Below, one piece after another: positions 8,458 through 51,901 of a stretch of DNA of 64,000 nucleotides (position 1 is the stretch's first letter; each line of letters starts with the position of its first letter). Below the pieces are notes generated by a model. It saw nothing but the letters and a program-made list of their open reading frames with translations, searched no databases and was not told the origin of the DNA. Source of the DNA: Mycoplasmatota bacterium (GTDB taxonomy: Bacteria; Bacillota_I; Bacilli_A; Izemoplasmatales; Hujiaoplasmataceae); assembly GCA_018622675.1 (NCBI GenBank), contig CP076020.1, forward strand, positions 1,240,001 to 1,304,000, given 5' to 3'. The position numbers and the translations under genes are program-made.

Positions 8458-9345
8458 CTAAATTAAAGAACTTATTCTTCTTTTAAGTTGAGACTCTAAA
8501 GATTTATTCTTAATTTTATTTATAAACGGATTAATATATCCAGAGATAATTAAACTTCTAGCTTGTTCCTCACTAAGTCCTCGACTTAACAAATAAAATA
8601 ATTGATTTTCATCAATCTGCCCTATTGCGGCTCCGTGGCTTGCTTTTACATTATACTCATCTATAAATAAAGTAGGTTCAACTTTTATTTCACCTTTTTT
8701 CGACAATATAATCCCTTTATTTAATTGATGACAATTTGATAACTCATTACCTTTTTCTATGGTCCCATTCACATAATAATCTAATTTTGCATTTTCATGA
8801 CTAATTAACCAATTATGAATTTGTGAATATGTTTTTTTAGCTTTATGATTCACTTGTTGGTTGACATAAACTAAATCATCTCTGCCGCCAACATTTAATA
8901 AATCAATATCTATATTAGCAAGTTCTTGATTTAAGTTAATTTTTTCATCAAGCCTTAATTGACCATTGTAAGTTATATTATTTAATAAGATCAAAGAACT
9001 ATTATATCCAAGGTTAAATTCTCTTTTTAAGTTCACTTTAGTTTTTCTTCTAGCTATAAAATTACTATATAAGTTTAATAAAGCTTTATTTTCAATATTG
9101 ATATTCATTTGAATCTCATTTTTTCTTGAATGATAGCTTATAAAAAAGACTTTAACCTTTACATTCTCTTTAATATTCAAATTTATCGTTTCTTTTGCGT
9201 AATTGTCTAAATAAATAAAAACTATTTCATCTTGTTCAAAAACAAATGAATTGTCTTTATAAATGGCTTTGGATTGGTTAATAACTTCGTTCTCAGACAA
9301 CGCAATAAAAGCATTGCCCTTTTGAATGTATTTTGGAATATTCAT
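8458..9345 (-). CDS. sufD: SufD, Fe-S assembly protein (short form)
   Basis: A SufB paralogue that completes the SufBC2D complex. The C-terminal part carries the family pattern: a Glu-rich beta-helix end, NVKASHGAAIGQIDENQLFYLLSRGLSEE (conserved His in SHGAA), and the helical tail. At 295 residues it is well below the usual ~400-430; the N-terminal helical region is missing or reduced. It lies between sufC and sufS, with 2 bp to sufC. The position and the C-terminus make the call secure. Confidence 0.9.
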   Translation of the reverse strand: MNIPKYIQKGNAFIALSENEVINQSKAIYKDNSFVFEQDEIVFIYLDNYAKETINLNIKENVKVKVFFISYHSRKNEIQMNINIENKALLNLYSNFIARRKTKVNLKREFNLGYNSSLILLNNITYNGQLRLDEKINLNQELANIDIDLLNVGGRDDLVYVNQQVNHKAKKTYSQIHNWLISHENAKLDYYVNGTIEKGNELSNCHQLNKGIILSKKGEIKVEPTLFIDEYNVKASHGAAIGQIDENQLFYLLSRGLSEEQARSLIISGYINPFINKIKNKSLESQLKRRISSLI

Positions 9346-18305: not shown

Positions 18306-18339
18306 GAAAAAATCACTAAATGATAATCTCATCTAGTGA
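18306..18339 (-). terminator. Terminator of the first c-di-GMP operon
   Basis: An ~11-bp stem (TCACTAGATGA pairing with TCATTTAGTGA, one G-U pair) formed partly by the last codons of the WalJ-like gene, followed on the minus strand by six T. It closes the operon that begins near 27133. Confidence 0.75.
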
Positions 18340-19104
18340 TATATGTTGTTTAGCGATAATTAATTGATATTGATCTAGAAGAAAACTTTTTGCTTTAAAA
18401 CAAACTTCATAAGTATCTTTAGCCACCATTGGCATATTACAATCTTCTGATAAATGAGCCAAAATAATAAATTTAGTATTTTCTCCTACAATCTCAGTCA
18501 TCATATTTGCACTATCTTCATTCGATAAATGACCCTGATCATCAAGAATTCTCCTTTTTAATAACCATGGTCTTTCACTCTCTAATAACATTTCAGCTTC
18601 GTAATTACTTTCAACCATATAAGCTGTTGCATTTTTTATTAAATCATATTTTCTTAAAGGAAAATAACCGGTATCTGTCATATAAACAAAGCTCTTATTA
18701 GCTTCAATAAACTTAAACCCCATAGGTTCTATGGCATCGTGGTAAGTATTAAAAGGAATTAATGTAAAGTCCTTAAAATCATAAATTTCTTCTTCTCTTA
18801 AAAAGTGTATGAAAGATTCATCAATAGGTCCAGTATAACGTTTATCTAAGCCCTTAAAAGTTCCTTCGCTTAAATATATTGGCACTTGATGATGATTAAG
18901 CAAGACTCTTAAACCACTTGTATGATCTCTATGCTCATGAGTAATAAAGACACCAGATAGCCCCTCCATGGTTTTCCCTTGCTTTTCCAATCTCAGTTTT
19001 AATTGTCTATAAGTTATTCCACAATCAATCAAATATTTTTTATCGTTAAATTCCAATAAGCTTGCATTGCCTTTAGAACCACTTGCTAGTACTGTTAATT
19101 TCAT
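18316..19104 (-). CDS. WalJ/YycJ-like metallo-beta-lactamase-fold hydrolase
   Basis: A 262-residue cytoplasmic hydrolase. The metal site is THEHRDHTSG near residues 55-64, with later ligands in YMTDTGYF and ILAHLSEDC. The N-terminus MKLTVLASGSKGNASLLE is typical of the YycJ/WalJ group, which is linked to cell-division/wall control and possibly acts on nucleic acid. The start codon overlaps the stop of the signal peptidase gene (ATGA), so it is the last gene of the first c-di-GMP operon. That neighbourhood is unusual, since WalJ normally sits with walRK, which are not in the window. Confidence 0.85.
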   Translation of the reverse strand: MKLTVLASGSKGNASLLEFNDKKYLIDCGITYRQLKLRLEKQGKTMEGLSGVFITHEHRDHTSGLRVLLNHHQVPIYLSEGTFKGLDKRYTGPIDESFIHFLREEEIYDFKDFTLIPFNTYHDAIEPMGFKFIEANKSFVYMTDTGYFPLRKYDLIKNATAYMVESNYEAEMLLESERPWLLKRRILDDQGHLSNEDSANMMTEIVGENTKFIILAHLSEDCNMPMVAKDTYEVCFKAKSFLLDQYQLIIAKQHISLDEIII

Positions 19105-19712
19105 CTGTCATCCTTTTCTTTTCTTAATCTTTCTTTTTCTTCTTGAACATATAATTTTTTTTCTTTTTCTAGTTTATGATCATTGATAGTTTTAATGATA
19201 TTCATTGCTTCTAGAACTATAATAATAACAAATATAAATAAAATAACAAGAAAAATGATATTAAAGTTTGATAAAAACAAACTTTTATATATCGAGCCAA
19301 GAAAAGTCGACTTTTGTCCATTATATTTCCCAATAATTAAATCTTCACTAAAATTCGTTTCCCAATCAGCGATTGATTGATTATTATCTCCTTTTGTTGT
19401 AATAAACGATTCATCACCAATTTGATTAATTTCAACAATCCTATGGGTAATGATGATGTTTAACTGGTCAGACTTCCTATAAGAAACAATATCATCAACA
19501 GCTAAATTATCATATTTTTGATTAATTATAATCATGTCTCCAGCCATAATCGTATCTTCCATAGATTCTGTTTGCACATATAAAATAGATTTGTTAAGGA
19601 TACTAGGTATTTGATTATTGATTAAAGCATAACCTAAACTTAAAACTAAAACCATTGAAATACCTATCATTAAAATGGGAATATATGTTAAAAATTTTTT
19701 TAGTATTTTCAC
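19101..19712 (-). CDS. SipW-type signal peptidase I (second copy)
   Basis: Membrane signal peptidase of the Ser/His (S26B, endoplasmic-reticulum/SipW) type. The helix at 9-31 is followed by catalytic Ser50 in QTESMEDTIMAGD, His90 in IITHRIVEI and an Asp109 in TTKGDNN; the His replaces the Lys of ordinary bacterial enzymes. A second membrane helix lies at 149-171, then a charged Lys/Glu tail. Start is GTG at 19712 with an AGGAGG RBS. It directly follows two SipW-type substrates, so its likely job is to cleave their signal peptides. Confidence 0.9.
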   Translation of the reverse strand: MKILKKFLTYIPILMIGISMVLVLSLGYALINNQIPSILNKSILYVQTESMEDTIMAGDMIIINQKYDNLAVDDIVSYRKSDQLNIIITHRIVEINQIGDESFITTKGDNNQSIADWETNFSEDLIIGKYNGQKSTFLGSIYKSLFLSNFNIIFLVILFIFVIIIVLEAMNIIKTINDHKLEKEKKLYVQEEKERLRKEKDDR

Positions 19713-19722
19713 TTACTTCCTC

Positions 19723-20316
19723 CTATGTTGTTGGCTTACCTGTATTAAAATCATAACTGGTTAAATCTTCCCAACTTATATGATTTGTTTGTTTGGCTTG
19801 TAAAATAACAGATATAGTGATCGGGATATTGACGTATTCATTACTTACTTTAAAGCCATCGTAATACATAGAGTTCATAATCACTAGCTTTCCAGATTTA
19901 GCAGATAATGATCCTGTTTTGCTCGGATAATACCAGTAGCCATCATTTGAATCAAATACAAAAGGACTATGAAACTCAATGATTAAGACATCAAAAAGAT
20001 CATTTTGATATAATTTTTGATTAGGAATGTCATCTTCTAAAATAGTATAATATACTTTTAAACGAATTTGTGTATTGATGGTAGACTGATTATTTACAAA
20101 AATATCTTCTAATATTAATTCTTTATGCGGGTTGATTGCTGTTCCATCACTTACAAGGCTTCCTCCTGTAGTATAATCAATTGCACCTGCACTCACAGAA
20201 CCCCCATCTGCTAAACCTGAATAAGAAATCCAAGCCAATGTTCCTGTTACGGAAACGAGCAATATAATGATTATTATTAAAAGACTTTTAACAATTTGAC
20301 GTTTGTGGTTCATCAT
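19723..20316 (-). CDS. SipW-dependent secreted protein, TasA/camelysin-like
   Basis: 197 residues. The signal peptide has a basic start, a long hydrophobic core and the SipW-type end GTLAWISYSGLADGG, where cleavage would fall near the Trp. The mature part is a beta-rich sandwich-like domain (VNIPITISVILQAKQTNHI near the end), as expected for TasA-like fibre or camelysin-family proteins. It overlaps the upstream gene by 4 bp and precedes a signal peptidase. It could be a minor fibre or anchoring subunit. Sequence beyond the signal is not recognisable, so function is inferred from the signal and operon. Confidence 0.75.
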   Translation of the reverse strand: MMNHKRQIVKSLLIIIIILLVSVTGTLAWISYSGLADGGSVSAGAIDYTTGGSLVSDGTAINPHKELILEDIFVNNQSTINTQIRLKVYYTILEDDIPNQKLYQNDLFDVLIIEFHSPFVFDSNDGYWYYPSKTGSLSAKSGKLVIMNSMYYDGFKVSNEYVNIPITISVILQAKQTNHISWEDLTSYDFNTGKPTT

Positions 20317-20921
20317 TCACCCACCGCCTGATCAAATTCAATTGAAATATTATTGATAGTAATGCCCTTATAAAAATATTCATTTCCTACTGATCCATCA
20401 AGTCCAAATGTAAAATATACCGTTCTCGATGCTCCAGCAGGAATAATAAAATCATTAGAAACAGATATTCTAGCATCAGAAAAGTTTGGTTGATCAGCTA
20501 AGATTTCTCCAAGATAATTGCTAGAAATAATTTCTATGTCATCTAGGTATGAAGCAAACTCTAAAACCTCAAAAAGAGATAAGGAATTTGGCTCAGTATC
20601 TGGTCCAGAATATGTACTATAAAAGCCAGTTAAGAATACATTAACTTCAATCGGAAAATTTTGGGAATTTTGAATTTCAACTTGATAATACTTAACATCT
20701 CCAGGCATAGCCCCTCTGAAATCGATTGACTCTGTTTCAATGTATTCAAGATCATCATCTGATACAGAAATTGTAGAATCTATAGAAATACCACTCATAT
20801 TGGCTTCGAACATATCAATATCAACGTATTTAGAGATAGCTAACCAAGCAAAAGAGGCGACAACGAATAAAACAACTGAACCAATTAACGCCAAAAGCGA
20901 TAAGTGTAGTCTTTTTTTCAT
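20313..20921 (-). CDS. SipW-dependent secreted protein, TasA/camelysin-like
   Basis: 202 residues. The start MKKRLHLSLLALIGSVVLFVV is followed by the SipW-type end ASFAWLAISKYVDID. The mature domain has the camelysin/TasA trend of a central PGDVKYYQVEIQNSQNFPIEV strand pair and a late AGASRTVYFTFGLDG strand. The PGD...V.I.N pattern is common in these beta-sandwich matrix proteins. It overlaps the next gene by 4 bp and is preceded by GAGGTGA. It is probably a structural or accessory fibre subunit. Confidence 0.78.
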   Translation of the reverse strand: MKKRLHLSLLALIGSVVLFVVASFAWLAISKYVDIDMFEANMSGISIDSTISVSDDDLEYIETESIDFRGAMPGDVKYYQVEIQNSQNFPIEVNVFLTGFYSTYSGPDTEPNSLSLFEVLEFASYLDDIEIISSNYLGEILADQPNFSDARISVSNDFIIPAGASRTVYFTFGLDGSVGNEYFYKGITINNISIEFDQAVGE

Positions 20922-20950
20922 AAAATCACCTCTCTATGTATATTTTTATT

Positions 20951-22495
20951 TTACTTATTTTTTTGTTTTTTTCTTAATTTTTCTGCTTCAGCAAGAATGC
21001 GTTTAGCTTCTTCTAACTTCTCTTGCTTGATAATTTTATCTCTCGCTTCCTTATCAAGCTCAGCCAACCTTTCTTTTCGCTTTTCTTCTTCAATTAATCT
21101 TTGTTTTTCTTTTTCCTCATCTTTGATATCTTGCCACTCTTTTTTAAATTTATCTAAATTCAAGGAAGCTAAAGTCTTATTAATTTTAAAATCTTTTAAG
21201 TTATCTTTCTTTAACTGTTCAATTTCTTTATATGTAGATAAGATCTTTTTTTGTATTTCAATTTTCTCTTGAACATCGCTCACATTTTCTAAATTATACT
21301 TATGTGCTATAAAATCTCTAAATGCAGCATCTGTAATCTTCTGTAATTGTGTGTATATAAGTTTAATCGATTCTTCATCTGGAATATCTGCGTCGTACAT
21401 AGTTTTAAATTTTTCATCATTTGTATCTCGTATTTTATCTAAAAAATATTGATTTAAACGATGATCATCATGAATGTATTGTCCAGCCTCTAGATATTGA
21501 TCTTGTTCTATTCTTTCAATTGATTTAACCTTTTTACTTCTCATATGATTAAAAGGCTTATTTAAATCTATATTAAAATCATCTAATTGACTATTAGCTA
21601 CAGTTGTGTATAAAACCATTAAAGCATTTTTCACTTGGGTTTCATATTTATCTTCTAGAGCAATATCACGGTCTAGAATATCAGCTTCATAACCGATTCT
21701 ATCCACTTGATCTAATAAAGTCCACATATGATAACATTTAGCAAAATCAACATTCTTGCGAATAACATTGGTAATCATAATAGGTGAACGTACGGGTGTG
21801 AATTGAGCCATAAGACTCATAAAATTAGACATTTTAAATTTAGATATTGATTTTCTTGCTTCAGTCATTCTCTCTAATAATTCTTGATTCTTTCTCCCCA
21901 TTTCATCATCATCAATATCTTTATTTATTCTTAAAGAAATATCATAATCAATCTTTGTGTTTTCCCAATTTAATTTAGAATTAATTTTCATATAGTTGAT
22001 ATATTCAGTATTCATTTTATCAACAATTAACTGATAACGTAGTTCTATAAACATGTATAATTTATCAACTAAAGATGCTAAAAACCTATTTTCATAAGTC
22101 CCTAAATCCTGATCATAATAAGAAGTCAAAACTTTACTTGGAACAATATTCCCATGTCTATCCGCACTCTTAATAAGCTCTGAATGACTTGCTAAGTGTC
22201 TAATAGAATCCGCATCGATTTTTTTTGCGCGTTCTACTGGAACAACTTCACGAATCTTTTTCAGTGCCTCACGGGGATTTCTAGTTAATTTATCAATTAC
22301 AGGAATGATATCTTCTACTTCACTCATCCATGAATCATCAAAAATTCGTTTTTCTTTACGTTCTTTTTGATAGAATTCCAAATCTGAAGTATCAAGTAAC
22401 TTTAAAAAATGCTTTGCAAAATCATCCGCTTTATTCACTTTTTCTATCGGACGATTGATTTTTTTATAATATTTTTTTGCAGTACCATTCTTCAT
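20951..22495 (-). CDS. DUF2357-domain protein, partner of the McrB-like ATPase
   Basis: 514 residues, highly charged, no signal or membrane helix. The core LGTYENRFLASLVDKLYMFIELRY is the DUF2357 hallmark seen in proteins encoded beside McrB-like ATPases. C-terminal ~90 residues are an almost continuous Lys/Glu/Arg coiled coil. I see no PD-(D/E)xK nuclease motif, unlike McrC. It lies 8 bp after the AAA+ gene, as McrC does after McrB. The context (signal peptidases and secreted fibres, c-di-GMP riboswitch) suggests a scaffold or adaptor at the inner membrane face rather than a nuclease. Family assignment is moderate; role is inference. Confidence 0.65.
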   Translation of the reverse strand: MKNGTAKKYYKKINRPIEKVNKADDFAKHFLKLLDTSDLEFYQKERKEKRIFDDSWMSEVEDIIPVIDKLTRNPREALKKIREVVPVERAKKIDADSIRHLASHSELIKSADRHGNIVPSKVLTSYYDQDLGTYENRFLASLVDKLYMFIELRYQLIVDKMNTEYINYMKINSKLNWENTKIDYDISLRINKDIDDDEMGRKNQELLERMTEARKSISKFKMSNFMSLMAQFTPVRSPIMITNVIRKNVDFAKCYHMWTLLDQVDRIGYEADILDRDIALEDKYETQVKNALMVLYTTVANSQLDDFNIDLNKPFNHMRSKKVKSIERIEQDQYLEAGQYIHDDHRLNQYFLDKIRDTNDEKFKTMYDADIPDEESIKLIYTQLQKITDAAFRDFIAHKYNLENVSDVQEKIEIQKKILSTYKEIEQLKKDNLKDFKINKTLASLNLDKFKKEWQDIKDEEKEKQRLIEEEKRKERLAELDKEARDKIIKQEKLEEAKRILAEAEKLRKKQKNK

Positions 22496-22503
22496 TCAAT
22501 CAC

Positions 22504-24147
22504 CTAATTCATTTTTCCTAAGCCGTTAATAAAGTTAACTGATTCTTGAAATCCATTTTTACCAAAAGTTTTCTTGATTTGAGCAAGTAATTCAGCGAGT
22601 TCATCTTGTAAAAAAGCTAAATTTAAGCTCTCAAATTTACGTAAGACTTTATAAGCAAAGATATAATCTAACCCATCTTCTTCTGTACCACCACAAGCTA
22701 CAAAAACTGGCACAAACTTATGAACTTGTTTCATAATCCTATTACCAAAAGCAATTTTAAATTTACTTTGAACAAACTTATCAAGGATAGCGAACTTTTC
22801 CAATAATTCTTCACTTACAGGATATTTGTAATGTGCTTCATCAAATAACTCTTGTAAATAAGTATGTGAAATATGAACTGGTTCAGTATCTGGAGCGTTA
22901 AAAGGCTCAGCTTTATTTTCAAACTCAAGAGAAATTGCACGGTCATAAACTTTATCCGTAATAGTATAAGTTGAATCGTCATTATTGGCAGTCCCAATAA
23001 ACCATACATTTTCAGGCACAGTGATTTTTCCATTGATAACCTTTAATGGATCAGTTGGTTTTGTATCTGGAACCAAGTCAATTTTCCATTCTGCAGGATT
23101 TGGCATTTCCATAATAGAAAGAAATTCTGCGAAATAGTATTCTATACGTGCCAAGTTCATCTCATCCAAAACAATATAATTTACATCTTGACGATAAATG
23201 CTTTCGTAAATCGCTTTAAGGAAATCTGTCTCATTAAAACGTTTAGTAAACTCATTTAAATAACCTATAATTTCTGCTCTATCTCTCCATGATGGTTGAA
23301 CAGAAATAATGGATGCATTATTTTCGAAAAACTTAGCCATAGCATATGGTAAAGATGTTTTACCAGTACCAGAAATACCTTCAAGAATCACAACTTTTGA
23401 AGCAGCCATACCGGCAAAAAAGATAGAAATAAGTTTTGGCGTATAATATAACTTAAGTTGTGATGCAGAGAAATTAACAAAGCGATTCACTAATTCTTCT
23501 AAAGAAAGATAATCCTCATCTTGCATATAAATATGAGTATCTACTCCAGCGTATTTATTATCTACATCAATAAGTTTAACAAAACGTGAGTCAATACCCG
23601 GTTTTTGTTTAGCTTGATCTTGAATACTTTGTTGCTGGGAAAGGCCTGATCTTTGTGTACGTTCTCTTCCATCTGTAACATATACTGTAGAAGCCTGTGA
23701 TCCACCTGAATACTGATTTGTGTATCCTTCAATGACTTCATTGCCACCTGTGCCACCTATACCAAGTTGAGAAACCTTTAATGCCATAATTTGATTTTTT
23801 TCATCAATCAAATCAATCACTCGATCATTTAAAGTAGCTATTTCTTCTATTAGTTCATGTTTTTCAATTTCAATTTTCCTAAACGCCATATATTTTCTTA
23901 ACCATAAAAACAATTTAATTAAAATGAAGACAAATAATGAAATGTTGATTGCTAAAGCCACAACCACCATAATCCAAGATATAACTGTAAAGTCTTTAGA
24001 TTCTTCCATTAAAATATTCCAGTATGTCGAAACATTAGAAAATAGTTTTTTAATTAAGTTATTCCAAAGAACTGTTTCAAAGAAATAGACAAGATGTTGC
24101 CAAATAGCTCGAAACAATCTTACATAATATCTTGAAAATTCATTCAT
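22504..24147 (-). CDS. Membrane-anchored McrB-like AAA+ ATPase
   Basis: 547 residues. Order: amphipathic N-terminus, a membrane helix about 53-81 (ISWIMVVVALAINISLFVFI), coiled coil about 85-118, a Gly/Gln/Ser-rich linker, then an AAA+ domain from about 230. Walker A is GISGTGKTS at 257-265, Walker B YIVLDEMNLARIEYY at 324-338 (the McrB-type signature) and sensor 1 WFIGTANNDDS near 382. The usual McrB N-terminal DNA-binding domain is replaced by the membrane anchor and linker. RBS GGAGG lies 7 bp before the ATG at 24147. It sits between a signal peptidase and DUF2357 genes. Likely a GTPase or ATPase motor acting at the membrane; McrB-type proteins often use GTP. Function is inference. Confidence 0.85.
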   Translation of the reverse strand: MNEFSRYYVRLFRAIWQHLVYFFETVLWNNLIKKLFSNVSTYWNILMEESKDFTVISWIMVVVALAINISLFVFILIKLFLWLRKYMAFRKIEIEKHELIEEIATLNDRVIDLIDEKNQIMALKVSQLGIGGTGGNEVIEGYTNQYSGGSQASTVYVTDGRERTQRSGLSQQQSIQDQAKQKPGIDSRFVKLIDVDNKYAGVDTHIYMQDEDYLSLEELVNRFVNFSASQLKLYYTPKLISIFFAGMAASKVVILEGISGTGKTSLPYAMAKFFENNASIISVQPSWRDRAEIIGYLNEFTKRFNETDFLKAIYESIYRQDVNYIVLDEMNLARIEYYFAEFLSIMEMPNPAEWKIDLVPDTKPTDPLKVINGKITVPENVWFIGTANNDDSTYTITDKVYDRAISLEFENKAEPFNAPDTEPVHISHTYLQELFDEAHYKYPVSEELLEKFAILDKFVQSKFKIAFGNRIMKQVHKFVPVFVACGGTEEDGLDYIFAYKVLRKFESLNLAFLQDELAELLAQIKKTFGKNGFQESVNFINGLGKMN

Positions 24148-24184
24148 TATATTGCCTCCAGTAATTATTTAGTTGTCGGAATTA

Positions 24185-24862
24185 CTACTCTTTATTTTTT
24201 TGTTCTTCCTCCAACTGTCGTTTTGCTTCTCTAACAGCGTCTTCGTGCATTTTTACACGATCAGCAACATGTTTCTTATTATTGTATTCAGAGTATACTT
24301 TTACAAAACGTATAACTTCATATACCAAAAAGGCTACCGCCGGAAGCACAATAAGCAAGAAAAAGCCTAAACCTGATTTTAAGAACCCTGTAAAACCATC
24401 GGCGAATGAGCCAAAATTTGACCAAGAATTTTCTGTCCATACACCAATGATTTCATTTTCAGAAACCCTTCTTGCATCATTTGTAGGATTATTATCACCC
24501 TTAGTTGTAAACCTTATGACTAATCCCGAATCATCAATTTCCACAATTCTATGGGTATTATAATAAGTAATCGTTCCCTCATCTGTTAACATAAAATCTT
24601 CATAAGTGATGACATCACCGATTTCTAAGTCTTCTGGATTCACATCTTTATCAATAAAGATCAAATCTCCTTCTTCAAATGTCGGTTTCATTGAATCAGA
24701 CTGTACAGCCAAAGAAGTTATACCCAAGAAAGATATTTGGTTTTCTTCTTTTTTAGAAAATAGCGCAAACATTGCATATAAAAATACAATAGCTAAAACA
24801 ACATAAAAAGCAATATTTAAAACTTTTTTCCATACATTTTTATTCTCTTGAACATTCTCCAT
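24185..24862 (-). CDS. sipW: SipW-type signal peptidase I (first copy)
   Basis: 225 residues from the ATG at 24862, chosen because AGGAG lies 8 bp upstream; a GTG three codons earlier is too close to that RBS. Helix at ~12-36, catalytic Ser60 in VQSDSMKPTFEEGD (Ser of SM), His107 in YYNTHRIVEID, and Asp126 in TTKGDNNPTND; a Ser/His enzyme of the S26B group, as SipW. A second membrane helix lies near 170-190 and a charged tail ends the protein. It follows the two main SipW-type secreted-protein genes and would process them. Confidence 0.92.
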   Translation of the reverse strand: MENVQENKNVWKKVLNIAFYVVLAIVFLYAMFALFSKKEENQISFLGITSLAVQSDSMKPTFEEGDLIFIDKDVNPEDLEIGDVITYEDFMLTDEGTITYYNTHRIVEIDDSGLVIRFTTKGDNNPTNDARRVSENEIIGVWTENSWSNFGSFADGFTGFLKSGLGFFLLIVLPAVAFLVYEVIRFVKVYSEYNNKKHVADRVKMHEDAVREAKRQLEEEQKNKE

Positions 24863-25019
24863 TATTTTCACTCCTAAAATAAAATAGATTTACACGATTT
24901 TATTATATATGATTATGCTAGTTTTTTCATTATGATTTTAAGAAAAATCACAAAAATAGGTAATTTTCCAATATAAATAAGCTTATATTTTACTTTAAGA
25001 CTAAAAACTGACTATTATT

Positions 25020-25064
25020 ACCCTAAGTTAACATAACTTAGGGAAGTCCCTAAGTTATGTTTTA
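25020..25064 (-). terminator. Intercistronic hairpin with a three-part repeat
   Basis: AACATAACTTAGGG and CCCTAAGTTATGTT form a perfect 14-bp stem with a 3-4 base loop, and a third copy of the half site (CCCTAAGTTAA) lies next to it, allowing an alternative pairing. It lacks a U-tract in the minus direction. It separates the two abundant-looking secreted-protein genes from the processing and motor genes. It probably acts as an mRNA stabiliser or partial terminator; this is inference. A weak promoter (TGAAAA-17-TATAAT) may lie downstream at ~24900-24930. Confidence 0.55.
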
Positions 25065-25117
25065 AACTTATAATATTGTAATTACTTTAAAATAATATCT
25101 CATAAATTAATCATATT

Positions 25118-26104
25118 TTATACATCTTCGCTAAATTTGAAACCAAATGAAATATTAAATGATGATTGAATAATTGAGTTAGTTGCTTGCGCATCCCATC
25201 CTTCTACATAGATTAATACAGTTACTAGAGTTGGTATCATATTTTGAACTGTGTATAAATCAGTACCGAGATCAGCTGTGTTACCAGTTAATAAAACACC
25301 TTCAGCTGCAGTTGTTTGTAAAACGCTGCCAGTTGTTTCATTTACTTGATCTGCAACTTCATTTAATGAATCACCAAGAGTCCCACTCGTAAATACATCA
25401 TCTGTGAAAACATAATCGTAATCGCTGTCATTACCAAAGATGAATGCAGCTCCCGCATTCGTCCCAGCAGCACCAGATAATGGATCAACTGAATCATCAA
25501 ACCAAATTGACATTCTAGCTGCATTTGCTACTGCTGCCTTAGTTCCCGTTTCATTGGTATCGATAGCAAGATTATCAATTTCTACCTCTTTAGAATTACC
25601 AGCCTGAGATAACACCCAAAATCTTAATTGCATGTAAAAACCACCTGCATTATTAAAATTTCCTGTTCCTAAAGGGCTTAATGTACGATCATTGACATCA
25701 ATTGAGTTTAATATTTTTCCATTAAAACCATCATAAGCACTGTTAATAACAGTCGCCGGCTTCATCCCCCAAGCTCCTGTTAACTCAGTTGGATTGTCAT
25801 ATAAGTATCCAGCTGCTATCATATCATCTACCGTAATTCTTGTTTGATAATTTGAAGCAGTCAATAAATCTACAGTGCCTTCATCACCTTCAAATGTTTC
25901 CCCATTACCACTAAGAACATAAGTCGCTGACTCATTAAATGGTGTAATCAATAGGTTGTCCGCTGCAGTAACATTAAGTTCCATAGAATCTACAGTAGTG
26001 TCTGTACTTACTGTGAACCATGCAAATGTTGTTCCTATAGTTGCAATAAATGCAAATACTAATACGATTCCTGATAAAATTACTTTCGTTCTTAAAGCTT
26101 TCAT
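25118..26104 (-). CDS. SipW-dependent TasA-like fibre protein (probable major subunit)
   Basis: 328 residues. The signal peptide has a positive start (MKALRTKVI), a long hydrophobic core and the classic SipW/TasA end IGTTFAWFTVSTDTTVDS. The mature part is acidic, beta-rich, and rich in Ala, Asn, Thr and Asp, with almost no Cys; this is the composition of secreted matrix or fibre proteins. A strong AAAGGAG RBS precedes the ATG at 26104. It is second in the c-di-GMP riboswitch operon and followed by a stable hairpin, suggesting high expression. I take it as the main structural subunit; that is inference. Confidence 0.8.
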   Translation of the reverse strand: MKALRTKVILSGIVLVFAFIATIGTTFAWFTVSTDTTVDSMELNVTAADNLLITPFNESATYVLSGNGETFEGDEGTVDLLTASNYQTRITVDDMIAAGYLYDNPTELTGAWGMKPATVINSAYDGFNGKILNSIDVNDRTLSPLGTGNFNNAGGFYMQLRFWVLSQAGNSKEVEIDNLAIDTNETGTKAAVANAARMSIWFDDSVDPLSGAAGTNAGAAFIFGNDSDYDYVFTDDVFTSGTLGDSLNEVADQVNETTGSVLQTTAAEGVLLTGNTADLGTDLYTVQNMIPTLVTVLIYVEGWDAQATNSIIQSSFNISFGFKFSEDV

Positions 26105-26132
26105 AATTTTTCTCCTTTTATTTTTTTAATTT

Positions 26133-26915
26133 TTAATTTTCCTCTTCGTCAATATTTCTTGTGTTCGATATTGTGAAATTCATAGCTAATTTCACGCCGC
26201 CACTCCATATATTAGGATTATGGTCGGCATCTTCTCCTTCGTACCAAATAACTATTGTGATTTTTTTAACTTCGTTAGGGACAAAGTCACTAAAAACTTT
26301 TTTCATCACTAAGTTACTTGTTGTGAAAGATTCTGTATAGGGTTCTAATTCACCTGGATTGTCTCCCATTTCTGATTGACGCATTGCGTAAGTTGTTCCT
26401 TCACCATCAATAATAACTCTGACTCTCAGTGCTTCTTCTGCACCCATTGATGTTTGAATGATATCAACTGTAGAAACAACGTCTGTCATATAATTACTTG
26501 GACCTACCATTGTTAAATAAAAAGTATAAGCTATGTAGGACTCGCCGTTGTTTGATCCATCAACAGAAACTAATTCTTCATCACTAGGTATACATTGTTC
26601 ATGTCCAATTGGACGTGTTGTGTAGCCTGTGCCACATAACGCTGTCATCCCATCTGCTTGATCAACTTTTTGAGCGAATAATCTTGTTGTAAATTCTTTT
26701 TCTAATTGATTGTCATAAAGTGTAATTCCAACGTCATTTGCTAACTCATCGACTGTAAAAGTAAAGTTTCCAGCTTCTAACCCATAAAACGATATTGCAA
26801 ATAGTAGAAAGGTTAATATGGCGGTTATAATGATTCCTAATCTTGTCGTCCTAGATAATTTTCCTGCTTTTGAAGCAAAGACAACTTTCTCAGCGAGATT
26901 TGATTTATTGATCAT
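26133..26915 (-). CDS. First gene of the c-di-GMP operon: membrane-anchored or secreted beta protein
   Basis: 260 residues. A 25-residue basic cytoplasmic start leads to one hydrophobic helix (about 26-46, LGIIITAILTFLLFAISFYG) and then an extracytoplasmic domain with a Cys pair (ALCGTGYTTRPIGHEQCIP) and several beta strands. The late segment PNEVKKITIVIWYEGED resembles the strand pairs of camelysin/TasA-type proteins. The AWF mark of SipW signals is absent, so it may be uncleaved or cut elsewhere. It could be a base or anchor for the fibre. It has no clear relative I can name; call by position and topology. Confidence 0.6.
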   Translation of the reverse strand: MINKSNLAEKVVFASKAGKLSRTTRLGIIITAILTFLLFAISFYGLEAGNFTFTVDELANDVGITLYDNQLEKEFTTRLFAQKVDQADGMTALCGTGYTTRPIGHEQCIPSDEELVSVDGSNNGESYIAYTFYLTMVGPSNYMTDVVSTVDIIQTSMGAEEALRVRVIIDGEGTTYAMRQSEMGDNPGELEPYTESFTTSNLVMKKVFSDFVPNEVKKITIVIWYEGEDADHNPNIWSGGVKLAMNFTISNTRNIDEEEN

Positions 26916-26939
26916 ACCGCGATACCATCCCCCCTAATC

Positions 26940-27024
26940 TATACTTAATGGCTCTTGTAATAAAAAAAGCCATTACCAAGAGATTTGAACGAACATCTTT
27001 TAGCTCAAATAGACAAATTGTCTA
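26940..27024 (-). other. Leader hairpins between riboswitch and first gene
   Basis: Two overlapping, mutually exclusive pairings are possible in the RNA: CTCTTGGTAAT with ATTACAAGAG, and TAATGGCT with AGCCATTA. A near-perfect palindrome TAGACAAATTGTCTA lies at 27010-27024. A run of seven T follows GGC inside the first. This may be a second control layer or mRNA protection. No family recognised. Confidence 0.35.
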
Positions 27025-27032
27025 TAAGAATT

Positions 27033-27063
27033 AAAAAATGCCATCATCTCTAAAGATAACGGC
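27033..27063 (-). terminator. Riboswitch expression-platform terminator
   Basis: Stem GCCGTTATC/GATGATGGC followed by six T on the minus strand. Its 5' arm shares the last bases (GCCG) of the c-di-GMP aptamer, so aptamer closing and terminator forming exclude each other. Confidence 0.85.
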
Positions 27064-27133
27064 AACTGGCTACCATCGTATTCGAAGGCCCTATAGTTTT
27101 GCGTCACTAACTTTCGCTAGCTTTGCTTTTTAC
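27060..27133 (-). ncRNA. Cyclic-di-GMP-I (GEMM-I) riboswitch
   Basis: The minus-strand RNA contains the GEMM-I hallmarks in order: GCAAA, a GAAA-tetraloop hairpin (GCTAGC GAAA GTTAGT), GTGACGCAAA, GGGCC, and GGTAGCCAGTTGCCG with the tetraloop-receptor arm. The A of GCAAA and the G/C positions that contact the ligand in known structures are present. It starts almost at the promoter's +1 and overlaps a terminator at its 3' end. Because the terminator takes bases from the aptamer's closing strand, binding of c-di-GMP should block termination and turn the operon on; that direction is inference. Confidence 0.92.
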
Positions 27134-27139
27134 ACTTGA

Positions 27140-27168
27140 ATTATATTATAAGGCAATATTTTTGTCAA
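27140..27168 (-). promoter_or_regulatory. Consensus sigma-A promoter of the first c-di-GMP operon
   Basis: On the minus strand TTGACA, exactly 17 bases, TATAAT: both boxes match consensus. +1 falls near 27133, so the aptamer is at the very 5' end of the transcript. Confidence 0.88.
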
Positions 27169-39603: not shown

Positions 39604-39632
39604 AAAAAAAGCGATTTAATCGCTTTTTTTTA
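39604..39632. terminator. Bidirectional terminator between tetR and the second c-di-GMP operon
   Basis: AAAAAAAGCGATT/AATCGCTTTTTTTT, serving tetR (plus) and the degenerate EAL gene (minus). Confidence 0.88.
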
Positions 39633-41126
39633 TTTCAAGAATTCTTTAAATGACTTCATATCCCATGGCGAATCTTTAACCAAGTCTTTAGCTTTTTCTA
39701 ATTCCACTGGTTCAGAGAAATAATAACCTTGCATAAATCTAATTCCCCATTCACTCATTTTTTTAATCATTTCACTATTTTCAATACCTTCTGCGATGAT
39801 AGTTTTATGGTTATCATTTGCTACTTTAACTAATCTTTGGAAATCTTTGATAGATGAATCATTATCCATAATCCTTAATAAATCACTTCTAGATATTTTA
39901 TAAATATTGGCTAATATTGAATCCATTTCTTCAATGAGTTCAAAATTATCTCCAGAGTCATCAATTGCAACTCTAAAACCGTATTTCCTAAACTCTTCAA
40001 GATTTTTAATTACTGTGGCGTTTTTATGAACAAAATAATAATCAATTATTTCTAAGCAGAAATTATCAGGTTTCATTCCATATTTTAAAGTAATATCATA
40101 AAATTTAGTTGCTATATCTTCTATATGTAATTGCTTAGGACTTAGATTTATTGATATAAAAAGTTGTCTTATCCTAAATTTTTTCAGCCATAAACTATAT
40201 TGTTTAACGACATTATCAAAGCCCCATATACCAAACCAGGTTATATCACCCGTTAAATCCATGACATTCAAAAATTTACCTGGTGATAAAATCCCCATTT
40301 TAGGATGATCCCATCTTAATAATGATTCTAAGCCAATAATCTTACCCGTAAAAACATCTACTATTGGCTGATAATACAATAAAAACTCTTCATTTTCAAT
40401 GGCTTTTTTTATTTCTTGATAGTAAGAGAGATTGAATCTTTCTTTTTCAATGAGATCTTCTGAATATAAACTATATCTTGCTTTTCCTTCTTTTTTAGCA
40501 ACATATACAGCTAAATCAGCATTCTTAATTAAGTTATCTGCATCAATACCATCATATGGGAAAACAACAATACCTATTGAAGCGGTTAACTTTAAACTAC
40601 CTACTTTTAATTCTTCACTAATTTCATCTAACAATCTTTGAGCATATTCTTCAATGATTTCATTGTTAACTTCTCCTCTATAATAGAAGATAAAGTGATC
40701 TCTTTTTAAATGACCAGCAATATGATCATTACCGGCTATTTTTAATAACCTTTTGTCAATTTCACCGATGATTTTATCAATGGTTTTTTGATCATAGTCT
40801 TCTGATATTGTTCGAAAATCATCTAAGTTAATGCTATATAATACTCTAAAATTATTTTCTCCATTTTTAAGTATATCTTCATTAATAGTCGTCTTAATGG
40901 TATTATCACTGGAAGTTTTCATAGTAAAAAGATCTTTGCTTTCTTTCATTTTCTCTTCGTCTTTATGCATAGAATCTCTTTCTTTTTTATCAGCACGAAT
41001 ATGGTTAATGACATTCCTATACAAGGCAAATAAACTAATGGCTGATACAATGACAATAATAAATGCAACCACTATTTCATAGGGTTGTGTCGTATTAACT
41101 GTTTCCAATACTCTAATAAAATCCAT
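39630..41126 (-). CDS. Membrane GGDEF-EAL protein with degenerate sites
   Basis: About 498 residues. The ATG at 41126 is preferred because GAGGAG lies 8 bp upstream; an ATG two codons earlier overlaps the previous stop. One membrane helix lies near residues 18-38. GGDEF-like domain about 95-225: the signature is KRDHF, so no cyclase activity is expected. EAL domain about 240-480: E in LESLLRW, N in INLSPKQ, E in CLEIID, DD in AIDDSGDN, K in YKISRSD, E in AEGIEN, Q in MQGYYF. Loop 6 reads DDSGDN instead of DDFGTG and KID is KIS, so phosphodiesterase activity is doubtful. It may bind c-di-GMP or act as a partner of the upstream enzyme. Last gene of the second riboswitch operon. Confidence 0.85.
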   Translation of the reverse strand: MDFIRVLETVNTTQPYEIVVAFIIVIVSAISLFALYRNVINHIRADKKERDSMHKDEEKMKESKDLFTMKTSSDNTIKTTINEDILKNGENNFRVLYSINLDDFRTISEDYDQKTIDKIIGEIDKRLLKIAGNDHIAGHLKRDHFIFYYRGEVNNEIIEEYAQRLLDEISEELKVGSLKLTASIGIVVFPYDGIDADNLIKNADLAVYVAKKEGKARYSLYSEDLIEKERFNLSYYQEIKKAIENEEFLLYYQPIVDVFTGKIIGLESLLRWDHPKMGILSPGKFLNVMDLTGDITWFGIWGFDNVVKQYSLWLKKFRIRQLFISINLSPKQLHIEDIATKFYDITLKYGMKPDNFCLEIIDYYFVHKNATVIKNLEEFRKYGFRVAIDDSGDNFELIEEMDSILANIYKISRSDLLRIMDNDSSIKDFQRLVKVANDNHKTIIAEGIENSEMIKKMSEWGIRFMQGYYFSEPVELEKAKDLVKDSPWDMKSFKEFLK

Positions 41127-41131
41127 ATTCA

Positions 41132-43645
41132 TTACTCCTCAGTATTATTTTTAGTGAACATATTGATACGTTTTGCTTTTGGTGTCTTATAAAATTTTTG
41201 AACAAAATTAACAGTATCATCATATATCAAAGGTTTTGAAATAAAGTAACCTTGGAACACATCTGTAGAAATTTGTTTTAAATACTCAAATTGTTTTAAA
41301 CTTTCAACACCTTCTACTATAACCTTCATATTTAATTGATGAACTAAATTAATCACCATACTAACAATATAATGATCTTTTTTCACTTCTAAAACTCCAT
41401 CGATAAATGATTTATCAATCTTTAAGTTATCAAATGATATTTGTCTTAAGTAAGTTAAGGAAGCATAACCAGTACCAAAGTCATCAAGTGAAAATCTTAC
41501 ACCAATTTTATGTAAATCAGCAATCTTATCATCCAAAGTAATTGTTGAATTAATAAAAATGCTTTCTGTTAACTCTAAAGTAAGATAGTTAGGATTAATG
41601 TCAGTTTCCCGTATAATTTTTTTTACAACGTCTACATAATTACTTTGCATAATTTGTAACAAGGAAACATTGACGCTCATAACGAATTCTTTATTAAACT
41701 TTTTCCTAAGTTCAACTTGGGCTTTACAAGCTTCCCTAAGAATCCATGTTCCAATAGGAACAATTAAATAGTTTTGTTCTGCATTAGCAATAAACACTTC
41801 TGGACTAATCTCACCTAATACTTTTGAATTCCATCTTGCCAATGATTCAAATCCATAAACTTCAGATTTTTTATCAACCAAAGGTTGGTATTTCAAATAT
41901 ATTTCTTCTCTTTCTAGTGCTAAAGATAGTTGATCGATGATTTCAGCTTGATAAGAAATCTCTTGTGAAATTTTATCATTATAAAATCTTAATTGTTTTT
42001 TGGTTGAGTGTTTATCCTTATATATGGCGATTTCACATTTTTTTAATAAATTATCTAAGTCGTCTCCATCGGTTGGATATGTTGACACACCAACAAAAAC
42101 TTTAACATCTAATTTCTTATCATCAACGAGAATAGGTTTAGAAAAATGTTCAATGATTTTATTGATTTTACTTTCAACACTTGATAATTTTTCAAAATCA
42201 TTGATGATGTAGGCCAATTCAAATTCTGTATTAGAAAATAAAATATCTTCTCTTCCCGTCATGTGTTCAATCGTTTCAGCCACATATCTCATAATACTAT
42301 TCATCATTTGTTGTCCCATGATAACAATGATATCTTTAATATTTTCTATTTGTAACAAACAAATCGCTACTCTTTTATCTCCAACTAAAACATTTTTATT
42401 AATATCATCAACAATTGCGGCTTGAGTTTTTAATCCTGTAATATCATTATAATTCATATTTTGATGGACTAACTTCATTCGCCTATCAACTTCATCAGAC
42501 ATCATATTTAGTTCATTAGCGATATCTTTCAACTCATTGTTTTCTTTAATATTTAACTTTTTCTGATAATTACCGTTTTTAATTTCTTTAATAGAGTTGA
42601 TAATATCTTCTATTGGGTTTAGAGATTTTTTTAAATTCTTATTTAAAATCAAATAGATCACATATACCACGATGGTTAGAAAACCAATGATAAAAAGTAA
42701 TACATATTCCAATCTGTAAATGGGCTGATTATCTCTTAATAAAATAACTGTCCAATCAAAATCTTCAATTTCATTATAATGAATTAAGTACTTTTTAGCA
42801 AATACATCTTCTAAAAGAACTTCCTCATCATATACTAAGTTGACTATTTTATTTAATCCTTGATCATTTAAACCCAAAGAATGATCAATTTGTTCATAAT
42901 CTTTTGGTTCATTCCCTAGATATTGATCATCATAATCCAATGACATATAAATAAGGTTTTGATCATTTGATAGTAAAATTAATTGATGAGATTTATCTAA
43001 AAGAAGATCGTTTAAGCCTTGTTCAATAACATCTAGGTCAAAATCAAAGCCAATATAGCCAATAATTCCTTGGCTATTAAAGACTTTATAGATCATGGTC
43101 ATTTGATATTGATCATTGTTATTTTTATAAGGGCGGGTGATTGTATAATTATCACTGCTTAAATGTTGGTACCAATGTGTATCTTGCAAAATATAATCAT
43201 CTTCGCTTGAGAATAAATCCCCAGTATGAGTCATTTGGATATTAACTTCTTCTGAAGCAACAAAGGCTCGAATTAACATTGAATCAGCTTGAACGCTCTG
43301 GTTCAAGAGTAATTGCATGTTTCGATATTGATTATAATAAGCTTGTCCTTCACCTTGTATGGGTTCAATCCCTTGGTTTACTAATTCTAAATACTCAATA
43401 ATCATTTCAGATTCAGACAAAGCGTTTAACTGGTCTAATTTCAAATGAATAACTTGATCGATATTTTCTGATATCAATTGATTTTTCTCTATCATGTCAT
43501 TCTTCTTTTGAACTTCTAAATTAACAGAAAATACCAATATCGCTATGGCCATTAAGGCAATGATAAAGAACGCATCTAAAAAGATGGTAAGTCCGACAAT
43601 TTGTTTGCCTAATTCGTTACTTCTTATTTTTCGTCTTTTTCTCAT
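41132..43645 (-). CDS. Sensor c-di-GMP phosphodiesterase (Cache-like, HAMP, degenerate GGDEF, intact EAL)
   Basis: 837 residues. Membrane helices near 15-40 and 320-345 bracket an extracellular domain of ~280 residues that looks like a double Cache sensor. A HAMP-like linker (SLNPIEDIINSIKEIKNGNYQ) follows, then a GGDEF domain whose signature is SNTEF (inactive as a cyclase). The EAL domain is complete: ESLARW, NVSLLQ, LELTES, DDFGTGYASL, LKIDKSF, VEGVES, QGYF. So it should hydrolyse c-di-GMP, tuned by an outside signal. It overlaps the giant surface gene by 4 bp and lies under a c-di-GMP riboswitch, a probable feedback loop. Confidence 0.92.
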   Translation of the reverse strand: MRKRRKIRSNELGKQIVGLTIFLDAFFIIALMAIAILVFSVNLEVQKKNDMIEKNQLISENIDQVIHLKLDQLNALSESEMIIEYLELVNQGIEPIQGEGQAYYNQYRNMQLLLNQSVQADSMLIRAFVASEEVNIQMTHTGDLFSSEDDYILQDTHWYQHLSSDNYTITRPYKNNNDQYQMTMIYKVFNSQGIIGYIGFDFDLDVIEQGLNDLLLDKSHQLILLSNDQNLIYMSLDYDDQYLGNEPKDYEQIDHSLGLNDQGLNKIVNLVYDEEVLLEDVFAKKYLIHYNEIEDFDWTVILLRDNQPIYRLEYVLLFIIGFLTIVVYVIYLILNKNLKKSLNPIEDIINSIKEIKNGNYQKKLNIKENNELKDIANELNMMSDEVDRRMKLVHQNMNYNDITGLKTQAAIVDDINKNVLVGDKRVAICLLQIENIKDIIVIMGQQMMNSIMRYVAETIEHMTGREDILFSNTEFELAYIINDFEKLSSVESKINKIIEHFSKPILVDDKKLDVKVFVGVSTYPTDGDDLDNLLKKCEIAIYKDKHSTKKQLRFYNDKISQEISYQAEIIDQLSLALEREEIYLKYQPLVDKKSEVYGFESLARWNSKVLGEISPEVFIANAEQNYLIVPIGTWILREACKAQVELRKKFNKEFVMSVNVSLLQIMQSNYVDVVKKIIRETDINPNYLTLELTESIFINSTITLDDKIADLHKIGVRFSLDDFGTGYASLTYLRQISFDNLKIDKSFIDGVLEVKKDHYIVSMVINLVHQLNMKVIVEGVESLKQFEYLKQISTDVFQGYFISKPLIYDDTVNFVQKFYKTPKAKRINMFTKNNTEE

Positions 43646-46600
43646 TCCTTATCTCCCCATGATTTAAAGAAATCATATAATCCAAACAACTGATTATTTT
43701 CTGATGTTTCAACAGGATAAATATAGATATTAAACTTTCTGGTTCTTAAATATATAGAATCTTCAATGTAAAAGTACTTACCTTGGAGATCAGAAACATA
43801 ATTGCTCGCATCATTTAACTGGTAAACTTCTCCGCCCAATTCAAATTCTATATCATAAGTATATAAATCATTTAAGTATTCATCAAGAGGAAGATCTAAA
43901 TAAATATTATAATAAAATGATCGGTTACGACCAAATCGATAGATGTATTCCTCATCTGTTGTGTAATATAATTGTGTTGTTCTGTTTTCTAATCCAATCA
44001 CTGAACTAAAATAAGGATAATCATCAGGATCATCAGTATCTTGAATATTGTAAGGACCATTGGTAACTAAATTTTGCATATTAATGATTACTAATTGATT
44101 ATTAAATGCTTGACTTTGATTGGCTAAAACACAAGTCGATTGACTTCCATCTGCACAATAATATAAATCAAATATGAAAGTAACATTATAAACAACATCA
44201 GTAACGATAAGATCATAATATACTATGTTTTCTTGATCTTCAGATGTAATACGATAGCGAATAATTACAGGTCCTGAGGGTATAGGCGTAGCCGTTTCAG
44301 GATAAGTTGTAAAATCAGCTGATAAAACAGCTTTTTCTGCTTCTGTTGCATCTTTTGCGACTTCTCCAGTGTATACCCATGAACTACCATTCCAATACTC
44401 TCTAGCAATCGTCGACCCAATTGGTAAATAATCCAAGAATAATGGTTGATAGTCATTTAAAGGAACATTACTAACTTTTCCTTCAATTCTAAAGTATTGA
44501 ATCTCAGCTTCATCAGCGCCATCATAATCAAAACCATTAAAATAAACTTTAGGATCATAAGGTGTTGTTAGTATTTCATGATCATCATTGGTAATCTCAA
44601 TATTTGGATAAACAGTTTCGTTGGCAAATTCTGAAAAACGAATATCTTTCAAGTAGGCATTGGTGCCTTCTTTTTTTATAATGCTTAAATCGCCAAATAA
44701 CTCAGTGGCAATTTGAACATATATTGAATCCGTGCGGCGGTATGAAATTTTAAAATTATATACACCCGGCTCAGTTAAAATACTCATATTGATGGTCATT
44801 AATTCTCCAAAAGAATATGTTATACCTTGAACATTTGAAATAGGATTACCTTGAAAATCAATACCAGTAATCAAAACTTCTATATTCGTTAAAGGATCAC
44901 CATAAGGATAAGTAGTTTTACCTGCTAGGTTTTTAGACAATGCCTGTTCAAAGCCTAAGTCAACACTAAAGTAGGTTACTTGATCCTCACGTAAGGCATA
45001 TGCATTGTCTAAAGCGACCTCATTTCCATTTCTCTTAATTCTTTCAATAAAAATTTGTCTTTCTGTAATGGTATGTAGATAAGTTGAAGTTGTTCCATCT
45101 TCAGCTTCAATCATATATTCTAAGACAATCGTTCTATAGCCTGTAACTTCATCCAAAGATGAAGAAAGTCTTCTTGCACTAATGACTTTTGCAAAAGGCG
45201 AAAGCCTTAAACTACCTGGTGTCATATATGAAATTTGGTAGAGATCATATAAGTAATCATTACTAGCATTTTCATATATTGAATAATTATCAATTGTTTC
45301 ATCAATGGTTAACTCCTGACCCAATCCCATGGTTGATGAAAAGCTATTGGTTATGTTTGTTGGGACAGAATCATTATCTCCTGTGTATGTAAAATCTATG
45401 ATATTGTTTTGTGAAGATAATCTTTTCGTAAAATCAATACGATATTTTCTTGAATTAGGATAGTAACTATATTCTAAATAATAATTCCCACCGCTTATAT
45501 TATTTAAGAAAGTAAATGTAATAGAATAATTTCCAAGAGAATCAACTGCGATTGAATCAACCTCATAATATTCCTCTAAAACCAATTCGCCTGTATGGAA
45601 ATATAAATCAAAATAACTTGAAAAATCATAACCTGGCAATAATAGCTGATTGTTATCTTTAAAGTTTAAGGTTAGCGATCCATCGGGATTAACCTCTTCA
45701 TATGGTCTTAAATCTAAAGGATCTGTATCAAGAACATTTATGGTATTTAATTGATTAAAATTCACAGATTCAACTCCAGTAAAATAGCTAGATTCAGAGA
45801 AATTCGGCATAAAGTAAATATCTATTCTATATTCATTGAAATAATCACTATTAGAAAAATCATAGATACCATTTTCAGGATCCATATAGAAAGCTTCTGA
45901 ATATACACCAAAATATCCCACAGTCAATAACTGAGGAGATTGAATATCATAGTTTGGCAAATTAACATTTAACTGAGCTCGAGCACCTGGATTAGAAGCG
46001 ATTTTCATATACGCTTCTTGATTTAGTAAATCCTGTAAGTCTGTGATAGACAAAGGTGATTCGCTTTGTCGAATACCGATTAATGCATTGGATGATGTAA
46101 GTGCATTAACGATTTCAAAACTTGCAGTTGTTTGACTGGAAATAAAAGCTTCCATACTAATAGCGAAAGTGACAACTTTTTGATCATAATCAATTCCTAA
46201 GTCAATACCGCTATTTAAAAAGTTTGGTATATCTGTCGCAAGCAATTGATTTTCACTTTCAGTGGTTTCTTGAATGATAAATGATTGATTATCTTCATCT
46301 TCTACTAAGTTAGATTTGTCATTATAAATAGTTTGTCTAAGGTCATTATATTTATCAATCAACTCAGGATCAATGTCTAGTTGATCGTTTTCTAATAATA
46401 ATTTGTAATCCAAGTCGAAATTTACATTTTCATTTTCATCAATTAAGCGTATATTGTCTAGTCGAATATTATTTGGAAGAACTGATCCATAAGTCTCACC
46501 CGCTGAAGTTGATAAGACATACATACCATTAGGTCTTGGATTTGTTCCTTCAGATTGGAATCTATCTGCTAATAATGTTTCTTCTGAAAAGTAAATATAC

Positions 46601-51039: not shown

Positions 51040-51732
51040 CTACCAAACACCTCCCCATGGCGGTATTTCTAATCCCCATATATAAATGGGGCCATCATCA
51101 CTTTGAACTGCTTCAATAGAAAAAGCTATCTGTAAAGAATAACCCGGACCCTTGGTACTAAAAGATCTATCTGGGAAATATGAATCCACAAATCCAATCA
51201 CTAAAGGTGTATTTTCGCTTATTCTTTGAACTTTATTTTGATAATATAAATATCCATCGAATGTCGAATGGTCATACCAATGATCTAAATCATAATTAAG
51301 TTCAACACCTTGATCATATCGGCTTGCTAGTTCATTTGTTACACCATTAATATCGGTATATATAAAGGTCATTTGTTCATATATTTTTATACGAAAATAT
51401 GTATCCACACTGCTTTTTACATTGATTGATATTCTTAAATCTTCTACAAAATAAGGTGCATCAGCGTCGGTAATATTGATGCGATAAACGCCTTCTTTAT
51501 TTTCATTAGAAGAAATCATCACTTCTTCTGCGGGAATTTCACCACCTAGACCGTCGTCGAAATATACATTCATATCTACATCAACAAAGCCCATTTCTCC
51601 TGCATAAATGATATGGTCTTCATCGGTAAACCAAGCATATGAAAGAACAACTGAAAAAACCACAACTAGTAATGTTGAGAAGGTTAATATAATAAGATTA
51701 AATTTTGATCTTATTACTTTTTGTTCCATCAT
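51040..51732 (-). CDS. SipW-dependent secreted protein heading the second c-di-GMP operon
   Basis: 230 residues with signal VVVFSVVLSYAWFTDEDHIIYAGEMGF, a SipW/TasA-type signal ending in AWF. The mature part contains strands such as YSLQIAFSIEAVQ and the acidic VDVDMNVYFDDGLGG, in keeping with TasA/camelysin proteins. It is encoded just downstream of the second c-di-GMP riboswitch; no signal peptidase lies in its operon, so it presumably uses those encoded at 19.1 and 24.2 kb. The giant protein gene starts right after its stop. May link the adhesin to the surface. Confidence 0.78.
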   Translation of the reverse strand: MMEQKVIRSKFNLIILTFSTLLVVVFSVVLSYAWFTDEDHIIYAGEMGFVDVDMNVYFDDGLGGEIPAEEVMISSNENKEGVYRINITDADAPYFVEDLRISINVKSSVDTYFRIKIYEQMTFIYTDINGVTNELASRYDQGVELNYDLDHWYDHSTFDGYLYYQNKVQRISENTPLVIGFVDSYFPDRSFSTKGPGYSLQIAFSIEAVQSDDGPIYIWGLEIPPWGGVW

Positions 51733-51897: not shown

Positions 51898-51901
51898 GTT
51901 A

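Follow-up and report, generated by a model that had tools for sequence, protein, structure and literature searches.

We analyzed a 64,000-nucleotide stretch (the window; positions 1,240,001 to 1,304,000 of contig CP076020.1) of a Mycoplasmatota bacterium (Izemoplasmatales) whose genome is a single contig of 1.65 Mb. The window contains a minus-strand operon in which a promoter, a cyclic di-GMP (c-di-GMP) riboswitch, nine genes (open reading frames 18316–26915) and a terminator follow in that order, the genes being S1, TasA-like, SipW1, McrB-like ATPase, DUF2357, S4, S3, SipW2 and a metallo-beta-lactamase (MBL) hydrolase. This anatomy had been proposed in a first-pass annotation made from the letters alone, and all its parts were found in place. 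Domains were called with Pfam, NCBIfam and PADLOC, riboswitches with the Rfam model RF01051 (gathering score 35), and structures were modeled with AlphaFold (AF2) and compared by Foldseek fold search. All window features given below lie on the minus strand. The promoter (TTGACA-17-TATAAT, 27140–27168) matches the consensus at 12/12 positions and is the sole perfect site within the 17 kb scanned, and a terminator-like stem closes the operon at 18312–18340. Spacing and signals are consistent with a single transcript from promoter to terminator.

Four of the products are predicted to be exported. S1 (260 aa, 26133–26915) is a membrane-anchored beta protein and a candidate fibre base or anchor. 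The TasA-like subunit (328 aa, 25118–26104) carries a SipW-type signal (FAWF), as do S4 (202 aa, 20313–20921; FAWL) and S3 (197 aa, 19723–20316; LAWI), the last with a weak camelysin-like match. As first proposed, the A-W motif follows the signal helix in three of the four proteins and is absent from S1; in the TasA-like protein it is conserved in the alignment. No Pfam family matched S1 or the TasA-like protein, and sequence searches of the PDB with their profiles returned nothing useful. The AlphaFold models reached a pLDDT of 83.5 (S1) and 72.9 (TasA-like). The TasA fibre 8aur was the first, weak match of the TasA-like model (E 0.013, TM-score 0.22–0.29), with a Sulfolobus thread third, and an archaeal bundling pilus (7ueg) was third, also weakly, for S1. 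We take these fold matches as leads, not proof. SipW1 (228 aa, 24185–24871) and SipW2 (203 aa, 19101–19712) scored above the TIGR02228 cut-off (100 and 69 bits, respectively) and have the Ser/His dyad of endoplasmic-reticulum-type signal peptidase I, with Ser in SDSM/TESM and His in THR as read from the sequence, in agreement with the earlier assignment. With the Bacillus SipW equivalog NF046067 the two proteins scored 67 and 89 bits, below its cut-off of 190.

The ATPase (547 aa, 22504–24147) combines, by profile and alignment, a probable transmembrane (TM) anchor, a coiled-coil-like helix and an NxD-type AAA+ NTPase. A profile search of the PDB returned E. coli McrB as its sole relatives, so that the McrB-like label given at first stands. 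Walker A (GISGTGKT), Walker B (LDExN) and the N-x-D-D motif (N388-x-D390-D391) are invariant in 18 ATPase sequences, and every one of them has, by eye, a hydrophobic segment at about residues 57–85 followed by a coiled-coil-like helix. Domain search and alignment found no nucleic-acid recognition domain on the ATPase, the TM segment and coiled coil standing alone. Its neighbor (514 aa, 20951–22495) is a McrC-like DUF2357 protein, as annotated (PF09823 above cut-off). The DUF2357 proteins compared have a common N-terminal part with a YEN[RK] motif, and their C-termini, judged by eye from the alignment, are mostly variable, charged, heptad-rich coiled coils. No family match to a PD-(D/E)xK nuclease and no conserved C-terminal domain was detected on them, and a PDB sequence search with the DUF2357 profile gave nothing useful. 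The pair resembles E. coli McrBC in its AAA+ core and DUF2357 partner, but here a TM anchor replaces the DNA-binding domain and a nuclease is not detectable. Relatives also carry separate McrB-like genes of ∼900 aa with DUF2357-like partners (loci L070–L076), one with zinc-ribbon matches; these are likely ordinary McrBC/CoCoNuT-type systems.

An association of such an ATPase, DUF2357 and signal peptidases, with an N-terminal TM segment and coiled coil (FtsB-like), was named CoCoPALM in 2024 within a census of CoCoNuT/Type IV restriction systems, according to the available part of that report (eLife, PMC11090510). Set against that description, our locus has a McrB NTPase of the NxD type that is preceded, by eye, by a hydrophobic segment and a coiled-coil-like helix, a McrC homologue with a coiled coil, and adjoining signal-peptidase genes (SipW1 and SipW2); judged from sequence, it shows the testable CoCoPALM features. 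The statement in the first-pass annotation that no SipW/TasA system has an AAA+ motor is therefore outdated, the AAA+/signal-peptidase link being CoCoPALM as that part of PMC11090510 describes it. Unlike CoCoPALM as described there, the present system has TasA-type cargo, c-di-GMP riboswitches, GGDEF-EAL partners and a hairpin, and the word TasA does not occur in the text of PMC11090510.

The gene grouping is conserved. We designate the window's own family f1 and other families of the same class by further f-numbers; L-numbers label the stretches compared, in this genome or in relatives. S1, the TasA-like gene, SipW, the TM-McrB ATPase, DUF2357 and a second SipW were found together in 31 of the 34 f1 genomes. 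Strong ATPase matches were obtained in 31/34 f1 genomes, five of the f2 genomes sampled, one f3 genome and more across the class, with ∼40%-identity matches in proteins of ∼900 aa (e.g., L070–L076) excluded as another McrB-like type. The order S1-TasA (one to three copies)-SipW1-AAA-DUF2357-(S4)-SipW2 is kept in f1, f2, f12, f16 and f18, and the same gene set, less complete, rearranged or on broken contigs, occurs in f3, f7, f9, f13 and f22. The grouping recurs beyond chance, because its order is found in dozens of genomes with the riboswitch at the same place. The co-occurrence of the AAA+/DUF2357 pair with SipW-type genes, the check that had been proposed for relatives, was thus strongly conserved across families. 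In a phylum-wide search, for which the number of other classes sampled is not established, the ATPase matched only within the window's class.

Among 395 genomes of the class, scored with strong ATPase matches, S1 was present in 87: S1 and the ATPase occurred together in 84, S1 alone in 3, the ATPase alone in 15 and neither in 293 (Fisher p = 7e-66, inflated by relatedness). Both genes were present or both absent in each f3 genome. At the S1-only loci, one (L109) ends at a contig edge, and two (L110, L111) are without the ATPase in the stretch examined. Pairwise distances of the ATPase correlated with those of DUF2357 (0.93), SipW1 (0.90) and S1 (0.89) over 36–46 loci and, within f1, with those of the adjacent MBL (0.81) and PFOR (0.60) genes. 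These correlations therefore indicate vertical co-inheritance of the ATPase with its neighbors.

The c-di-GMP-I aptamer (27058–27137; RF01051, 65.5 bits, E 1.4e-10) is followed by a terminator (27039–27064) whose 5′ arm is the 3′ strand of the aptamer. RF01051 lies directly upstream of S1 in ∼31 of the 39 loci with testable upstream DNA: it is found ∼20–280 nt upstream in 14/14 testable f1 operons, including a second copy in this genome (L039), and also in f2 (3/5), f3, f7, f9, f12, f16, f18 and f22, in some cases as two or three tandem aptamers. In f13, f20 and two f2 genomes, RF01051 had no match anywhere. The terminator 5′ arm begins 6–9 nt inside the aptamer 3′ end in 13/14 f1 operons; in several f12, f16 and f18 loci it begins 12–16 nt inside and draws on the core AGCCAGUU strand. 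The L039 copy has a matching hairpin without a U-run. Since aptamer and terminator share, and would compete for, one strand, an ON switch is predicted. The genome has sixteen GGDEF matches, so c-di-GMP signaling is likely present in the organism. The c-di-GMP induction claimed at the outset thus has a conserved riboswitch and a layout that fits an ON switch.

The regulon is wider than this operon. The genome has six c-di-GMP-I riboswitches, all preceding genes of likely surface or exported proteins: one at each of two fibre operons, one at a second operon of the window, two in L101 and one before giant proteins. The second operon (39630–51899) begins with a riboswitch (51822–51899; RF01051, 64.4 bits) that overlaps its terminator, and encodes a 230-aa exported protein with a SipW-type signal (YAWF; 51040–51732), a 2,465-aa probable surface protein (43642–51039), an 837-aa HAMP-GGDEF-EAL protein (41132–43645) and a 500-aa GGDEF-EAL protein (39630–41132) whose gene overlaps the preceding one. 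Pfam had no family for the 230-aa or the 2,465-aa protein. A GGDEF-EAL pair also lies beside the fibre operon in f2, f3, f12, f16 and f18. All three ATPase loci of the genome have a same-strand c-di-GMP-I riboswitch upstream and adjoining surface-protein genes. The operon bounds first drawn were therefore too narrow for the whole system, which extends to the operon at 39630–51899 and to two more ATPase loci.

The first of these loci, L039 (6531–19001), is the second, riboswitch-bearing copy of the fibre operon; it has no adjacent SipW2 and carries, in line, a 229-aa SipW-type protein, similar to the 230-aa protein of the window, as well as a long open reading frame that would encode a giant protein. 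The other (L113/L114; genome 936587–970894, minus strand) has a riboswitch, giant proteins of ∼5,935 and ∼3,838 aa, the smaller of which has cadherin-like repeats, and then the third ATPase-DUF2357 pair, a degenerate GGDEF-EAL protein lying between on the same strand. The same-strand layout makes co-transcription across these 34 kb putative. In L101 (1443–5820; genome ∼201.9–206.3 kb, plus strand), a SipW/TasA-type cluster with signals ending in AYW/SYW and two signal peptidases is preceded by two c-di-GMP-I riboswitches; it offers a natural within-genome comparison for the ATPase-bearing operons.

The hairpin first noted near position 25020 was placed at 25061–25030, 3′ of the TasA-like gene, with the stem AACATAACTTAGG/CCTAAGTTATGTT. 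Its core pattern occurs at exactly two sites in the genome, one per paralogous operon (in L039 at ∼8959–8995), and recurs at the equivalent position in ∼20 f1 loci. Three of its pairs change on both sides (12 cells), a level reached by 0/500 shuffles, and pairing is lost when the register is slid. No Rfam family matched it. A terminator was considered and rejected, as the window and nearly all relatives lack a U-run, and a DNA operator is less likely, given arms that covary around a loop of varying length. A terminator after bsaA in Clostridium perfringens yields a short subunit message beside a long read-through one (PMC7395162), and by analogy we infer an mRNA-level element that would raise the output of subunit over that of the machine.

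These data suggest a CoCoPALM-type operon that has specialised in surface structures induced by c-di-GMP, with the ATPase as a remodelling machine, a reading we consider reasonably probable. At high c-di-GMP, the aptamer would hold the strand needed by the terminator, and the operon would be read. Sec would export the TasA-like subunits and S1, the two dedicated SipW peptidases would cut them, and S1, held in the membrane, may serve as the base or anchor of a TasA- or thread-like fibre. The ATPase, anchored at the inner membrane face, would be stimulated by the coiled-coil DUF2357 protein, itself nuclease-free, and would work as a remodelling machine powered by nucleotide, gating or assisting the export, processing or anchoring of subunits; a role in fibre assembly is our best inference. 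The hairpin would probably raise the subunit-to-machine ratio, the second riboswitch operon would add a giant surface protein, and its GGDEF-EAL proteins may feed back on c-di-GMP. The more specific proposal, that a restriction-type McrB/McrC machine was converted to a dedicated one, induced by c-di-GMP and driven by nucleotide, that assembles or exports TasA-type fibres and giant surface proteins, is tentative, and we rate it somewhat below even. From the earlier proposal of a c-di-GMP-induced surface-fibre system with its own motor, the SipW/TasA-type surface proteins and the co-inheritance of the ATPase/DUF2357 pair hold; the fibres and the motor role stay conditional.

Known fibre systems match the locus in part. 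Bacillus subtilis tapA-sipW-tasA likewise joins TasA-like subunits and a cognate SipW in one operon; to our knowledge, it has no AAA+ ATPase or DUF2357, one SipW and no c-di-GMP riboswitch. The C. perfringens sipW-bsaABCRSD operon encodes a SipW-dependent filament protein but, as described, is under two-component control and has no ATPase (PMC7395162). Archaeal threads and bundling pili (7pnb, 7ueg), which S1 and the TasA-like protein weakly resemble by fold, are donor-strand fibres of beta subunits processed by signal peptidase I, and no McrB-like machine is described for them in the available part of PMC9715654. Within the open-licence literature, we found no paper that brings SipW/TasA together with McrB and c-di-GMP, which is not proof of novelty, no experimental description of such surface-appendage machinery, and no sign of the follow-up announced in the available part of PMC11090510. 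Nor did we find published there the c-di-GMP switch, the TasA-type cargo, the GGDEF-EAL partners, the RNA hairpin or the riboswitch-led giant-protein paralogue.

Several observations weigh against a fibre-assembly machine. Fibres of the TasA type form by donor-strand exchange, a process not known to require a motor (PMC9674648). The fold matches are weak (TM-scores 0.2–0.35). The L039 copy has no adjacent DUF2357, f13 and f20 keep the ATPase yet lack the riboswitch, neither a SipW nor a TasA gene adjoins the third ATPase copy (L040), and the riboswitch-led SipW/TasA-type cluster of L101, in the same genome, has no ATPase. The last two points would also be expected if the ATPase were co-regulated with the fibre genes but acted in another envelope process. 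We regard this as unlikely, given the near-strict co-occurrence with S1 and the constant placement, in many families, between SipW1 and SipW2.

Less likely still, the ATPase/DUF2357 pair might be a nuclease-less offshoot of McrBC defence that senses phage attack from the membrane beside surface proteins. Such an origin would accord with the McrB/McrC homology, with a match of the ATPase to the PADLOC candidate-defence model PDC-M26A (142 bits) and with the naming of CoCoPALM in a restriction census, but not with the shared riboswitch control or with the presence in relatives of the separate ∼900-aa McrB-like genes and their own DUF2357-like partners. On plasmid and phage records only the ATPase core was matched, and none covered at least 80% of the protein. 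A restriction role is disfavored because no nuclease or nucleic-acid-binding domain was found, inheritance is vertical (with MBL and PFOR at a fixed place in f1), near-full-length mobile copies were not seen and the neighbors are surface genes. Equally improbable is that the pair powers filament movement or mechanical work (retraction, gliding, force transmission) rather than assembly. A membrane-anchored AAA+ protein with coiled coils might suggest it, as might a riboswitch-led paralogue whose neighbors are giant proteins, one of them bearing cadherin-like repeats, but known motility partner genes were not seen and c-di-GMP induction usually favors attachment over movement.

CoCoPALM was named from gene neighborhoods, and in the literature searched, including the available part of PMC11090510, we found no tested function or regulator for it. 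The c-di-GMP switch, the TasA-type cargo and the missing nuclease would tie it to the cell surface rather than to phage restriction, and the recurrence of cluster and switch across many related families suggests that a restriction motor was re-used for surface structures. If so, a defence NTPase would have been turned to constructing the cell surface, and relatives of the wall-less Mollicutes would have a pathway of attachment under c-di-GMP. The Bacilli lineage of the host includes wall-less members.

The last gene of the operon encodes a WalJ/YycJ-like hydrolase of 262 aa with a metallo-beta-lactamase fold (18316–19104). It was considered as a core component and set aside, since it was not beside SipW2 in the other families examined. 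Hence the conserved gene group of the nine-gene unit first proposed stands without this member. Because the MBL and PFOR genes follow SipW2 in f1 only, among the loci examined, the hydrolase is probably an incidental local neighbor.

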